Part shown: piece by piece, positions 58,090 to 62,962 of the stretch
Layout of the letters: the number at the start of each line of letters is the position of its first letter
Numbering within the stretch: the first letter of the stretch is position 1
DNA from: Terriglobales bacterium
GTDB taxonomy: Bacteria > Acidobacteriota > Terriglobia > Terriglobales > Acidobacteriaceae
Length of the DNA: 64,000 bases
Direction: 5' to 3'
NCBI GenBank assembly: GCA_015655585.1
Contig: JAATEV010000068.1
Location: 1-64,000 of the forward strand
Notes under the pieces: generated by a model
Database searches by the model: none
Told to the model about the DNA's origin: nothing
The model's input: the letters and a program-made list of their open reading frames with translations, nothing else
Translations under genes and position numbers: made by a program

Positions 58090-58097
58090 GTCAAAAT
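58090..58097. repeat. Target-site duplication, left copy (GTCAAAAT)
   Basis: Immediately outside the left TIR; identical to 62254-62261. Confidence 0.85.
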
Positions 58098-58167
58098 CGG
58101 GAGTATGTACTTTACGCAAGAGGTTGAATGGGAATGGCTGAATTGACGAAAGAACAAAAAGAGGCGA

Positions 58168-58470
58168 TCAGTTGGGGAATTCAGTTGGCGGCAGAGCTTC
58201 AAGAGCTTTCCGCAGAGCTTCCTCCGAAAATAGCTCAGGAGAGGGCGGCGTCTTGGCATCAATCATTGCGTCGTAGGAATTCGCCGCTTCTAGGACATCT
58301 GGAGATTCTCGGGCGTCAGCTAGAATTCCTTCAACGACAGCGGGATTCCCGAAAGGCCCTTCTTTCAGAAGAGCCGCAAACTTACGATACGTCAGTAATT
58401 CCCGATAATTCTTCTTTGCGTGTTCCGCGAAGACGCGAATAGCTACTTGCCGTTTGGATTCGTTTTCCAT
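58168..58470 (-). CDS. Hypothetical transposon cargo protein
   Basis: 100-aa ORF MENESKRQVAIRVFAEHAKKNYRELLTYRKFAALL..., preferred over the overlapping opposite-strand ORF. Confidence 0.55.
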   Translation of the reverse strand: MENESKRQVAIRVFAEHAKKNYRELLTYRKFAALLKEGPFGNPAVVEGILADARESPDVLEAANSYDAMIDAKTPPSPELFSEEALRKALEALPPTEFPN

Positions 58471-58497
58471 TCATTCTTCCTGAAAGTATTTATCGAT

Positions 58498-58725
58498 TCA
58501 GATAGGCCGAAAGAATTCCCCGAGAGACATATCGAAGCTTTTGGCAAATACCTCCAAGGTAAACAGGCATGGTTCCTTGAGTCCACACTCCACATTGCTG
58601 ATGAAGGTCTTACTCATGCCAGTATGGACAGAGAAATAAGTCTGCGTCCACCCTCGCTCACGACGTAGGTGTCGGATACGATTCCCAACGCGCTTGCGCA
58701 CGTCCTCCTCTTTATCCGTTGCCAT
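58498..58725 (-). CDS. XRE-family HTH regulator (transposon cargo)
   Basis: VGNRIRHLRRERGWTQTYFSVHTGMSKTFISNVECGLKEPCLFTLEVFAKSFDMSLGEFF. Confidence 0.85.
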   Translation of the reverse strand: MATDKEEDVRKRVGNRIRHLRRERGWTQTYFSVHTGMSKTFISNVECGLKEPCLFTLEVFAKSFDMSLGEFFRPI

Positions 58726-58795
58726 ATAGCTAGGATGCCGGTACTCTATCGGTTAATAATTCCTCCATAGAGCAACAAAGAAAGAACGTGCACGT

Positions 58796-59035
58796 ATGCA
58801 AGTGGCAACATCGATTCGCCGTCGTCCATCCCCCGAACAAGGCCGTGCTCTTGAGATTCTGGGGCACGCGATTGAGTATCTGATGGATTCTTATGTACTT
58901 ATGGCCTCCAAAGATGGTGGGGTCGGGGATGCGGAGGCCGCGCAACTCCTGATGCGATTGAGTCTGGAAGTCTTTGAGGAGTGTCCACTGGCTATATCGT
59001 TCTGGGAAGGACTACGAAAATGGTTGAGTCGTTAA
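58796..59035 (+). CDS. Hypothetical transposon cargo protein
   Basis: 79-aa ORF divergent from the XRE regulator; helical composition. Confidence 0.5.
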   Translation: MQVATSIRRRPSPEQGRALEILGHAIEYLMDSYVLMASKDGGVGDAEAAQLLMRLSLEVFEECPLAISFWEGLRKWLSR

Positions 59036-59134
59036 ATTCTTTTCAAACTGACCCACGACCTGTGACTGTCAATGGGGGAACAACAGATCGGTCGAGATAG
59101 TGCGGTTGTCTCGGAAAGGGATAAGATTAAAGAC

Positions 59135-59713
59135 ATGTCTTGGTTACAGCACATATTCAGGCCAAAGCTCAAGTCGGAAGAAAATCCATTCCCTGCTCAG
59201 GCCAAAAACCGCCCAATGATGCCCACCGTAAAGTTTGACGTTTCACTGGTCACAAACAAGGTAAAGGCTGACCTTCGCAAGAACGTCGAGCAGCTTGAAG
59301 ACATTCCAAAGAAACATATTCGCGAGATATATGACGCCGCACTAGCCATGATCGAGTCAGGCGGAAATATGCCGCTGCTGTACAACATGCTCCTAAAGGT
59401 GGATGGCATGACCAAGGGTCGTGCTAGAGAGATAACCATAACGCTTGGCAATAAAGCTCATGCACTCACAGAGCAGGAAAGACGGGTAAGACTTGGCATC
59501 ACTCACGCAATATGGATGTACTCTAACGCGCCTTGCATGGTGAACCCGAAGCATCCCACGGACGCCGACCACAAACAGGACGCCGCGCACCAAGCAGCGA
59601 ACGGCAAGCAGTTTGAAGTCGGGAAGGGCTTCCTGATCAACGGAGTTTGGACCCTGCCAGGCAGAGATATGGGATGCAAATGCAATTCGAGGACTGTGGT
59701 CCCTTGGATCTAG
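59135..59713 (+). CDS. Phage MuF/head-morphogenesis-like C-terminal domain protein (transposon cargo)
   Basis: C-terminal FLINGVWTLPGRDMGCKCNSRTVVPWI resembles the MuF/SPP1 gp7 family C-terminus; start at MSWLQHIF (ORF can extend to 59072). Confidence 0.5.
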   Translation: MSWLQHIFRPKLKSEENPFPAQAKNRPMMPTVKFDVSLVTNKVKADLRKNVEQLEDIPKKHIREIYDAALAMIESGGNMPLLYNMLLKVDGMTKGRAREITITLGNKAHALTEQERRVRLGITHAIWMYSNAPCMVNPKHPTDADHKQDAAHQAANGKQFEVGKGFLINGVWTLPGRDMGCKCNSRTVVPWI

Positions 59714-59800
59714 CCCTTCAACCGCTAGTGTCACCGTCTATAACTAGAGAAGTCCAGTGGTGTGTCTGAAAAGTGCGTTGGTGTAAAATTAAGGCACAAA

Positions 59801-59829
59801 CAGAAAAGCCGCCCTGCAAGGCGGCTCTC
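59801..59829. terminator. Hairpin terminator-like element in transposon
   Basis: aaaaGCCGCCctgcaaGGCGGCtctcc. Confidence 0.45.
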
Positions 59830-59898
59830 CCCTATCTTTGTACCGGCAGATTCAAGATATCACTTGAGGTGTACCGATGCAAGAATATTCTGAACTCC

Positions 59899-60150
59899 CT
59901 ACCAATCAGATAACCCCTTTAGAAGAGTTCGCAAAGTATTGGCATCGTCATGACTCATTGGCCCAATCTCGTCTTTTGCTGCACGAAGATTTGTTTTATA
60001 CAACTTTCGAAGATTTGGATCGCTTTCTAGCGTCCTTCGAAGAGCCACCACTGTCTGAAGGGCGTTATTGATCGCCTTATCCTGTCTTTTTAGATACGTC
60101 GCTAGTTCTTTATGGATCAGACGTAATTCCTTAATCTTTGCATCTTCCAT
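59899..60150 (-). CDS. Small hypothetical protein (transposon cargo)
   Basis: 83-aa ORF MEDAKIKELRLIHKELATYLKRQDKAINNALQTVVALRRTLE...; overlaps a 64-aa ORF on the other strand. Confidence 0.4.
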   Translation of the reverse strand: MEDAKIKELRLIHKELATYLKRQDKAINNALQTVVALRRTLESDPNLRKLYKTNLRAAKDEIGPMSHDDANTLRTLLKGLSDW

Positions 60151-60207
60151 TGGACTTTCTCGCTTTCCGTTCTAGGATTCACAACCATCATTCCTACTTA
60201 GGCCCAA

Positions 60208-60321
60208 GAGGATCGGGATTCCAATCTGGAGCGAGGGAGCCGCAAGGCAGGGATCAAAACACTTCAGGCAATTGCGGATGCTTTGGGATTGCGAATGGAA
60301 GAGTTGTTTCGGGGATTATGA
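60208..60321 (+). pseudogene. Truncated XRE/HTH regulator remnant
   Basis: Frame ...EDRDSNLERGSRKAGIKTLQAIADALGLRMEELFRGL* without an N-terminal half; upstream in-frame stop. Confidence 0.6.
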
Positions 60322-60448
60322 TTCTTTGGGCCATCCCGCCGTTGGCTTTTTCTTCTCAAGAGATTTCTTGACCGCTTCTTCCCATTTGCCATCGAGTTTC
60401 AGTCGGTATGGCTCTGGGCCACGCTTCAATGGTTCTGGAGTTTTCTTC

Positions 60449-61414
60449 TTAGGCATGTGGGTTGACCGCTGACTGATACATGAGCCGCTTTCCTTCTGCG
60501 GCTTTGATTGCTTCAATGGTACGCTCTCCATCATTCAACTTGCGAGTGTTCCAAACGAAATCGAACTGCCAGAGATAGCGGTGGAGATATTCCTTGCTGA
60601 CGTTATGGTATGTGCCGATAATGCCACGTTTTACGAGTGCAAAAGAACTTTCAGCAGTGTTGGTATGAATCGGGCCTCTGGCATATTCCTTGCGGCTGTG
60701 CGTAACTGTGAGATGACCGCCCATGAAGTGATCGCCGATGCCCTTATAAGCTGCATTCTCATCGGTAAAGATATGGGATCGGGGATCAACAACATTCTTG
60801 ATTGCGGCTTTGAGTGTCTTTCCCGTCACATCCGCGACAACATGACGCCGGATTTGACCATCGCGTTCAACCGCTGCAAATACGGGAACTTTCGAGGTTC
60901 CCATTCCACGCTTGTTGTGTCCTTTGAACCTGGGTTTGCCGCCAACATACGTTTCATCGCATTCGACAAAGCCTTGCAATTTCGGGGCAGTTGGCAGGTC
61001 TGGAGCCATCGCAAACCGGATGCGATTCATCAGGAACAATGCACTCTTGTAGCTGATCTGGCAGTGACGCTGAATCTCTAGAGCACTAACGCCCTTTTTC
61101 GAGGTGCAAGCTCTCCAGAACGCATAAGCCCAATGGCGCAAGGGGAGGCGGCTTTCTTCGTATACCGTGCCAATTCTGACCGTGTATTGTTCTTTGCAAT
61201 CGCGGCAACGCCAGAGAAACCGCTTGCTACGCTCACCCGTTTTCGAATCCTTCATAGCGTAGACATCAACAGAGCCACACTTCACACAGCATGGCGTATT
61301 CCCCCAGCGTTGGAACTCAAAGAATTCCACGGCGGCAAGTTCATCGGAGCAGGCAAGTGGAATCTGTTCAATGACTTTCGATTTGCTGAGGTTGTGTGTA
61401 TCGCGCTTTCTCAT
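60449..61414 (-). CDS. IS1595-family transposase (DDE, ISXO2-like)
   Basis: CCVKCGSVDVYAM...WRCRDC zinc ribbon; ECDETYVGGKPRFKGHNKRGMG; FTDENAAYKGIGDHF; GPIHTNTAESSFALVKRGIIGTYHNVS. Confidence 0.93.
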   Translation of the reverse strand: MRKRDTHNLSKSKVIEQIPLACSDELAAVEFFEFQRWGNTPCCVKCGSVDVYAMKDSKTGERSKRFLWRCRDCKEQYTVRIGTVYEESRLPLRHWAYAFWRACTSKKGVSALEIQRHCQISYKSALFLMNRIRFAMAPDLPTAPKLQGFVECDETYVGGKPRFKGHNKRGMGTSKVPVFAAVERDGQIRRHVVADVTGKTLKAAIKNVVDPRSHIFTDENAAYKGIGDHFMGGHLTVTHSRKEYARGPIHTNTAESSFALVKRGIIGTYHNVSKEYLHRYLWQFDFVWNTRKLNDGERTIEAIKAAEGKRLMYQSAVNPHA

Positions 61415-61504
61415 AGGTATAATTTTATACTTAGCGCAATTATTTCGTCAAGTATAATGTTTAGTTGACATTGGCGCGCCGCAGAGTTATTATGCCTCAT
61501 AGTG

Positions 61505-61604
61505 TGGTGCGGTGAAGGGGAATCGAACCCCCATGGGCCTAGCTTCAACTAGGTACCCGGCAGAATCCAAGTCTGCTGCGTCTCGCCAATGTCGCCATCA
61601 CCGC
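61505..61604 (-). tRNA. Class II tRNA, Leu-like body, predicted anticodon UGG (Pro), CCA encoded
   Basis: GCGGTGA TG GCG ACATTGGCGAGA CGC A GCAGA CTTGGAT TCTGC CGGGTACCTAGTTGAAGCTAGGCCCAT GGGGG TTCGATT CCCCT TCACCGC A CCA. Confidence 0.85.
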
Positions 61605-61621
61605 ATTGCTTTAGAGAATGA

Positions 61622-61700
61622 GGCCGGAGTCAGGGTTGAACTGATTGTCCATGAGGTGCAAACTCATGTCCCTAGACCCCTAGGGTTAGGCTCCCCGGCC
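61622..61700 (-). tRNA. tRNA-like cloverleaf, predicted anticodon UGC, no encoded CCA, atypical D arm
   Basis: Acceptor GGCCGGG/TCCGGCC; D stem CCTA/TAGG; anticodon arm ATGAG-TTTGCAC-CTCAT; T arm TCAG-TTCAACC-CTGA; position 8 is G, not U. Confidence 0.5.
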
Positions 61701-61710
61701 ATATAAACGA

Positions 61711-62100
61711 TTAGGAGGTTTTCTCTTCGGAGTTAACCTCCTCTTCTTTTGCCCTCAAAGCGCCGTATTTTCCGTATCCGCGCTTTTCAATCTTCTTCTT
61801 TCCTACCAATTTGGACAGAATGGTGCGAGTCGTCCCAAGCGGTATATCCAAAGATTCGGATAGCGATACAGGATCAAAATCGTTTTCTGGAGATTCCGAC
61901 AACGTCGTCAATATGCGGCCTATGCCAGAACCTTTCCGAATGCGCGGAGAGGGCTTGGTTGCTACTGCAACTGCGACCTGCTGGGTAGACGTAGAATTCG
62001 GTATCAGCCTATCCCACTGCGCCTGAGCAGCAGCCAAATCCTGCTTCAACGCAACAATCTTTGCGGCGAGTTTCAACACTTCTTCGGGTTGAGGTCGCAT
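61711..62100 (-). CDS. Winged-helix-like regulatory protein (transposon cargo)
   Basis: N-terminal coiled coil then GSGIGRILTTLSESPENDFDPVSLSESLDIPLGTTRTILSKLVGKKKIEKRGYGKYG. Confidence 0.6.
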   Translation of the reverse strand: MRPQPEEVLKLAAKIVALKQDLAAAQAQWDRLIPNSTSTQQVAVAVATKPSPRIRKGSGIGRILTTLSESPENDFDPVSLSESLDIPLGTTRTILSKLVGKKKIEKRGYGKYGALRAKEEEVNSEEKTS

Positions 62101-62253
62101 CGTCTTGTACCCTCTATGGAATAAATATACCTCAGATTTGAAAAGGGTACAAATTATTTTCACAAATGGTCGGCAAGAAGAACGGGGTGGGGTATGTCGA
62201 GGTGAGCGGTATCTACCTTTTAATTACACCTTTGCGTAAAGTACATACTTCCG

Positions 62254-62261
62254 GTCAAAAT
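62254..62261. repeat. Target-site duplication, right copy (GTCAAAAT)
   Basis: Immediately outside the right TIR; identical to 58090-58097. Confidence 0.85.
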
Positions 62262-62545: not shown

Positions 62546-62647
62546 GATAAGTATGTCGCATTGCAGCGAGCTTTTTGACGCCGGGGCTTGGTAGTGTCTG
62601 ACGAATCGAATTTGGTTTGTTTATAGAATGCGGGACTGGGGCAAGAA

Positions 62648-62731
62648 GGCATACCCCAGGGGCTGAAGCCCCATTTTTCGACTGGCAGGAGAGGCCCAAG
62701 GCTAAAGCCTTGGGGTACCCAGAAGCAAAAA
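62648..62731. repeat. Dispersed intergenic repeat R1 (copy 2)
   Basis: ggcataccccaggggctgaagccccatttttcgactggcaggagaggcccaaggctaaagccttggggtacccagaagcaaaa. Confidence 0.8.
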
Positions 62732-62889: not shown

Positions 62890-62962
62890 TATGGGACGAG
62901 AAGCGAATTTCTCCGCTGCGCAGCTCACGATGAGGCTGTGAGCTGCTTCGGTCGAAATGACG
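62890..62962. repeat. Dispersed intergenic repeat R4 (copy 3)
   Basis: tatgggacgagaagcgaatttctccgctgcgcagctcacgatgaggctgtgagctgcttcggtcgaaatgacg. Confidence 0.75.

Follow-up and report, generated by a model that had tools for sequence, protein, structure and literature searches.

A leucine-type tRNA with a proline UGG anticodon is a recurrent passenger of IS1595-family transposons

Allo-tRNAs, which are long-armed tRNAs of Acidobacteria and other bacteria, carry anticodons mismatched to their identity elements (Mukai et al. 2017; PMC7609411) and act as missense or nonsense suppressors in E. coli (PMC7609411). One Edaphobacter allo-tRNA overlaps a transposon-related gene, and a link to transposons or toxin-antitoxin systems has tentatively been suggested (PMC7609411). 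An engineered yeast tRNA-Ser(UGG) inserts serine at proline codons and is toxic unless modulated (PMC6827378); like the tRNA described here, it is a class II tRNA with a synthetase that ignores the anticodon and a proline anticodon, but it is artificial and eukaryotic. The Ser-type tRNA of element L183 described below is a natural bacterial counterpart. The present tRNA was found in a window of 64,000 nucleotides (the whole stretch of DNA analysed) and belongs to a group carried by IS1595 transposons. It resembles the allo-tRNAs in that its identity elements, those of a Leu-type body, are mismatched to its UGG anticodon. In allo-tRNAs the acceptor/T arms are 8/4 or 9/3 and the identity is mainly serine, whereas the IS1595 tRNAs have 7/5 arms, mainly leucine identity and mostly UGG, as well as a defined home in IS1595 and a usual winged-helix partner gene. 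Because of their 7/5 arms and mostly leucine identity the IS1595 tRNAs are not allo-tRNAs by definition; by analogy, they would work like allo-tRNAs if charged. A natural Streptomyces tRNA-Pro variant with alanine identity is expected to misread proline codons, as the IS1595 tRNA is, although it is a class I tRNA, is charged by AlaRS and is not borne by a transposon. Known IS1595 transposons with passenger genes share with the present element a DDE_Tnp_IS1595 transposase, inverted ends, 8-bp duplications and passengers placed beside the transposase; the difference is that the passenger here is a tRNA together with a coiled-coil/winged-helix gene, and no report of tRNAs as IS1595 passengers was found in the open-access library searched.

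The window element combines an IS1595-type DDE transposase with inverted repeats and an 8-bp target duplication, as is characteristic of the IS1595 family (Table 1). Terminal-repeat sites occurred twice in the window, against 0.02 expected, and the inverted ends and the duplication GTCAAAAT enclose the tRNA, in agreement with the transposon location proposed for it in an earlier sequence-only reading. A second stretch of the genome (G000:C3:52819-53261) is 73% identical in DNA to the MuF-like cargo gene. Just outside the transposon, at about 62637-62729 and at 62898-62962, lie short intergenic sequences with many copies across genomes of the genus.

Table 1. Coordinates of the IS1595 transposon, its tRNA and associated features in the window.
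Feature	Coordinates	Strand	Basis or remark
Target-site duplication GTCAAAAT, left copy	58090-58097	+	8 bp flanking left inverted end
Complete IS1595-family transposon, 4156 bp	58098-62253		22-bp inverted ends, 8-bp duplication, DDE_Tnp_IS1595 domain
Left terminal inverted repeat CGGGAGTATGTACTTTACGCAA	58098-58119	+	Near-perfect 22-bp repeat
Cro/CI-type HTH regulator, additional cargo here	58498-58725	-	Domain match
MuF-like phage head-morphogenesis fragment, additional cargo here	59072-59713	+	PHROG 324, E 6e-16
IS1595 (ISXO2-like) transposase, 321 aa	60449-61414	-	PF12762, E 1.6e-39; PF12760 zinc ribbon
CCA codon 19 of the transposase	61358-61360	-	Identical in all of the first seven UGG elements
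Promoter-like TTGACG-18-TAAAAT site, lying between the tRNA and the transposase gene	61422-61451	-	Consensus match only
Class II, Leu-type tRNA, anticodon UGG	61505-61604	-	ARAGORN, Rfam, stem inspection; encoded CCA at 61505-61507
Second, irregular tRNA-like fold; loop TTTGCAC (UGC), short variable loop, no CCA	61622-61700	-	Cloverleaf scan
Coiled-coil/winged-helix protein, 150 aa, usual tRNA partner gene	61711-62163	-	Comparison with relatives; model of L179
Hairpin at end of winged-helix ORF	61713-61742	-	z -2.4; recurs just before the tRNA in relatives
Right terminal inverted repeat CGGAAGTATGTACTTTACGCAA	62232-62253	-	Near-perfect 22-bp repeat
Target-site duplication GTCAAAAT, right copy	62254-62261	+	8 bp flanking right inverted end

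Read along the minus strand, the 5' half of the tRNA consists of GCGGTGA, TG, GCG, ACATTGGCGAGA, CGC, A, GCAGA, CTTGGAT and TCTGC, and the 3' half of a 27-nt variable region followed by GGGGG, TTCGATT, CCCCT, TCACCGC, A and CCA. The acceptor (GCGGTGA/TCACCGC, 7/7), anticodon (GCAGA/TCTGC, 5/5; loop CTTGGAT) and T stems (GGGGG/CCCCT, 5/5 with one G-U; loop TTCGATT) are paired throughout, the variable region holds a GGG..CCTAG/CTAGG..CCC helix, and the acceptor/T configuration is 7/5, with A73 and an encoded CCA. The full cloverleaf that the sequence-only reading had described, with its 7-bp acceptor, Leu-style D arm, long variable arm, T loop, A73 and CCA, is thus present in all its parts, and the UGG anticodon it had assigned agrees with the ARAGORN call of tRNA-Pro(tgg) at exactly the tabulated bounds. 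The score to the Rfam tRNA model (RF00005; gathering score 29) is 44.1 bits in a local run, the blank result of a whole-window search at gathering threshold being a filter effect. An assembly error is unlikely because the same arrangement recurs in many independent genomes. A cloverleaf due to chance is excluded, since a strict cloverleaf scanner run on 60 shuffled 4-kb sequences returned zero matches in each of the 15 best listed. The window tRNA has C14 in place of the near-universal A14, which all 30 other listed tRNAs carry, and one additional D-loop base, changes that may make it a weakened copy; it also has A37 and U38, whereas tRNA-Pro has G37. Phage and plasmid BLAST searches with the window tRNA gave ordinary or distant matches, or none. 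The irregular fold just upstream of the tRNA reached a cloverleaf score of 45 against a shuffle maximum of 36 (n=150), with a fold z of -1.9, and was called by neither ARAGORN nor Rfam. In the tRNA trailer, positions 61467-61484 form a 16/18-nt antisense copy of the D arm, and a predicted sigma-70-like promoter (11/12) at 61465-61493 on the plus strand points into the antisense strand of the tRNA; the D-arm complement was considered as an anti-tRNA switch and rejected, as it occurs in the window copy only among the elements compared.

By similarity, the body of the window tRNA is of leucine type. Its blastn relatives in genomes of the family, for which the loci were read, are tRNA-Leu genes with CAA, UAA or UAG anticodons, and its full-length identity to the host tRNAs is 62-68% for Leu, 56-59% for Ser and 48-54% for Pro. 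Features of tRNA-Leu found in the window copy are the long class II arm, A73 and A15-U48, with A14 and a Leu anticodon missing; features of tRNA-Pro are the UGG anticodon and A73, while the class I body, C1-G72 and G37 are replaced by a class II body, G1-C72 and A37. Together with the long arm and the best similarity to tRNA-Leu, A73 and A15-U48 speak for leucine identity, despite C14. Five tRNA-Leu genes and the tRNA-Pro species UGG, CGG and GGG are already present in the host genome (3.12 Mb in 122 contigs, 75% complete), so the window tRNA is surplus. The same genome contains an extra tRNA-Glu(CTC) at G000:C38:17118-17192 (L047), unlike its two other tRNA-Glu genes and either acquired or a contaminant.

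The Leu-like UGG tRNA is a recurrent, conserved passenger of IS1595 in several bacterial phyla. The sequence-only reading was right about the Leu-type class II body, the UGG anticodon and the transposon location, and it erred in treating the tRNA as a single oddity. In a blind scan of IMG/VR and GTDB r220, made with a DNA pattern for Leu-bodied UGG tRNAs and with no transposon reference, about 14 independent tRNAs were left after removal of random matches, and 11 of these had an IS1595 transposase and/or a winged-helix ORF. The transposase lay alongside in L085, L073, L074, L075, L076, L079, L081 and L082; in L078, L087 and L089 the same kind of upstream ORF was found and no transposase in the fetched DNA; L084, L088/L091 and L092 had neither an IS1595 transposase nor a winged-helix ORF. 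Inverted ends and perfect 8-bp duplications surround the tRNA in L085, L074, L076 and L081, and inverted ends with 8-bp duplications enclose it likewise in the window element and in L179, L180, L181, L182 and L183. A control pattern for other non-Leu anticodons, run on viral contigs, gave only the UGG matches and one UGU tRNA near IS1595; the latter is a class II tRNA in viral contig L230, where a distant IS1595 transposase lies some 600 bp away.

A second survey started from transposase searches in Acidobacteriota, the home family and Planctomycetota, followed by a shuffle-calibrated cloverleaf scanner, and yielded about 20 IS1595 elements with a class II tRNA, mostly UGG, with one UGC clade, a single UUA, possibly a UGU and one Ser-type UGG. 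Regular UGG tRNAs were found in the window, L085, L179, L180, L266, L274, L284, L289 and L293, irregular UGG tRNAs in L278 and L288, UGC tRNAs in L181, L182, L281, L285 and L294, and the Ser-type UGG tRNA, with G73, in L183. The UUA anticodon of the Leu-type tRNA in L297 would read the stop codon UAA. In the transposase tree the UGC elements form one supported clade, and the UGG elements are scattered, with several gains or losses. All 18 alphaproteobacterial IS1595 loci from other clades lacked a class II tRNA. The IS1595 family can also do without one, since many close relatives have no detectable tRNA. Other unusual tRNAs were seen in phage contigs of IMG/VR: many contigs (L107, L139, L100, L126, L157, L127 and L144 among them) have tRNA-like sequences in which the acceptor (often AGTCAGG/CCTGACT) is perfect and a T arm and a Leu-type D arm are present, but no canonical five-pair anticodon stem, and L104, L113, L165, L135, L149, L099, L121, L132 and L138 have phage tRNAs with a Leu-type D arm, a variable region of 25-41 nt, anticodon GUU, U1-A72 and G73, which to judge from their sequences are apparently class II-bodied tRNA-Asn.

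The stems of these tRNAs have been kept. Among 31 listed tRNAs, including the near-duplicates L207/L079 and L182/L281, 216/217 acceptor, 153/155 anticodon and 155/155 T-stem pairs are intact (524/527 in sum), though the acceptor sequences differ widely. The 7/5 arms are common to the window tRNA and its listed relatives, and U8, A14, G18G19, U33 and A73 are present in nearly all 31. Leu-bodied tRNAs have A15 and nearly always U48, while the Ser-bodied one has G15-C48 and G73; most have G1-C72, with C1-G72 and A73 in L079/L207 and L278, and most have A37, with G37 in L085, L179, L266 and L289. Apart from C14 in the window, the breaks in otherwise general features are C55 in L181-L183, the lack of G18G19 together with G55 in L278, and C33 in L288. 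In L182 and L281 the tRNAs are 100% identical beside transposase DNA of 86% identity, and in L085 and L179 the tRNAs are 93% alike against 73% for transposase DNA. The transposases of L181 and L285 are 91% identical, and their tRNAs are unrelated (60%) and their partner genes differ; both tRNAs have UGC, and since this anticodon is kept across unrelated tRNAs it seems to matter to the element. An ordinary tRNA-Leu that was copied into a transposon by chance, and is now decaying with a drifting anticodon, would agree with C14 and the additional D-loop base of the window copy and with the patchy presence among IS1595 relatives, but such a capture is highly improbable in view of the recurrent association, the almost unbroken stem pairing, the finding of one anticodon on differing tRNA bodies and the L182/L281 comparison. 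That the tRNA is functional cargo of the transposon is well supported.

The transposases of UGG elements use CCA in a position-specific manner. In the first seven compared, a single one of 57 invariant four-fold-degenerate columns (1/57) had an invariant codon, the proline CCA in the motif E-[IL]-P-x-A-C; in L033, the sister of the window element, where no tRNA was found, the corresponding codon is CCC. At four variable-region proline sites, picked after inspection of these seven elements, CCA makes up 36/38 codons in UGG elements and 15/39 in others, and in a hold-out of seven new UGG elements the same sites gave 13/15 versus 14/33 (p=0.005, by a test that ignores relatedness). At conserved proline columns CCA is rare, 5/77 in UGG elements versus 24/109 in others, with a hold-out of 3/35 versus 10/61 that is not significant (p=0.36, likewise ignoring relatedness). 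In UGC elements GCA is rarer at conserved alanine columns (10/48 versus 26/66; p=0.04, relatedness again ignored), and no comparable trend was seen elsewhere. Column conservation alone was tried as a predictor of CCA and rejected as not significant, the effect being site-specific, and CCA use is unremarkable in the winged-helix genes.

The same codons could be explained by a tRNA that supplies proline, being charged by ProRS and helping to translate CCA, a codon uncommon in the host, in the transposase. CCA accounts for 60/180 proline codons in UGG transposases as against 85/738 (11.5%) in host genes of the window, L079/L207 and L278 share C1-G72 and A73 with tRNA-Pro, and ProRS reads G35, G36 and A73. 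At the CCA sites, some elements without a detected tRNA have proline encoded by CCC, CCG or CCT, and no leucine was seen there in homologous transposases, so CCA may simply be read as proline. Such a supply role is nevertheless quite unlikely, given the Leu-type D arm, A15-U48, the long variable arm, mostly G1-C72, A37 rather than G37 in most members, a host tRNA-Pro(UGG) already in place, the rarity of CCA at conserved prolines of UGG transposases, and cousins of UGC, UUA and Ser type that do not fit. The invariant CCA near the transposase start, taken with A37 in most members, would also suit a +1 frameshift tRNA, in which UGG lacking m1G37 slips on CCN to give a programmed frameshift in the transposase; this is very improbable, as the transposase is encoded by a single open reading frame and no overlapping frame downstream of it calls for a shift, and L085, L179, L266 and L289 have G37.

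The tRNA usually follows, on the same strand, a coiled-coil/winged-helix ORF, a strong hairpin and a short spacer. The upstream ORF is present in the window, L085, L179, L180, L266, L181, L182, L281, L285, L289, L294, L081, L078, L087, L089 and L073; in L183 the partner ORF lies downstream of the tRNA, and beside the tRNAs of L284, L278, L293 and L297 no winged-helix ORF was found. In L181 and L182 the ORF-tRNA pair is inverted relative to the transposase, which indicates that the pair is a portable module and the tRNA not a mere transposase leader; in three elements without a tRNA (L184-L186) the ORF is absent too. Hairpins upstream of the tRNA have a mean z of -2.7, with 18/27 below -1.5, and downstream of it the mean is -0.6. 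For the partner protein of L179, modelling predicts a single helix of 91 residues and, after it, a winged helix of three helices and a two-strand wing, with pLDDT mostly >90 in those parts; a PDB search returned mainly winged-helix proteins, none at E<=0.001. Searches of the partner proteins against Pfam gave no family above cut-off, HARE-HTH (PF05066) appearing only in L180 (21.9 bits versus 25.9) and not in the window protein, and defence-system profiles gave weak matches in two relatives only and none in the window protein. In the viral-contig element L074 an AlbA_2/Schlafen-like gene, judged by eye, follows the UGG tRNA.

The tight pairing with one protein type and the leader hairpin raise the question of whether the RNA acts outside translation, as a decoy, an aminoacyl donor or a regulatory RNA that works with the winged-helix protein in a toxin-antitoxin- or silencing-like manner. 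The universal features broken in L181-L183, L278, L288 and the window agree with such a role, as does the suggestion that allo-tRNAs might be parts of transposons or of toxin-antitoxin systems (PMC7609411). That the tRNA acts wholly outside translation is unlikely, because the relatives are mostly fully canonical and the codon use of the transposases follows the anticodon; the retention of UGG across swapped bodies also speaks against it.

The preferred reading, for and against which the balance stands about even, is that a subfamily of IS1595 carries the tRNA as a conserved and functional passenger, that it is of class II and of leucine identity (serine in one lineage) with an anticodon moved to UGG (UGC in one clade), and that it would be active in translation, probably as a leucine-charged missense tRNA tied to the transposase. 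Charging would be by LeuRS, which in bacteria ignores the anticodon. The tRNA, once expressed and charged with leucine (serine in L183), would probably be read at CCA in competition with the host tRNA-Pro(UGG), leucine being inserted at some of these codons, possibly including the four tolerant sites of the element's own transposase. The winged-helix partner is probably a DNA-binding protein that controls the module or the element. With such a tRNA the element would bring along a reading of one codon that is its own and partly altered; this may determine how active the transposase is, or make loss of the element costly. A more specific proposal, rather unlikely at present, is a transposon that recodes itself: its own tRNA would give CCA (or GCA) a second meaning, the codon would be placed at chosen transposase sites, and the composition and activity of the transposase would depend on tRNA dose, as a copy-number or new-host switch under the winged-helix protein.

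Natural tRNAs with mismatched anticodons have so far been scattered curiosities with no agreed role. Here they gain a defined carrier in IS1595 and a gene that usually accompanies them, their anticodon recurs, and the transposase of the carrier bears a codon signature, so that why bacteria keep mistranslating tRNAs becomes a testable question. The finding also suggests that a changed codon meaning can travel horizontally on mobile elements.
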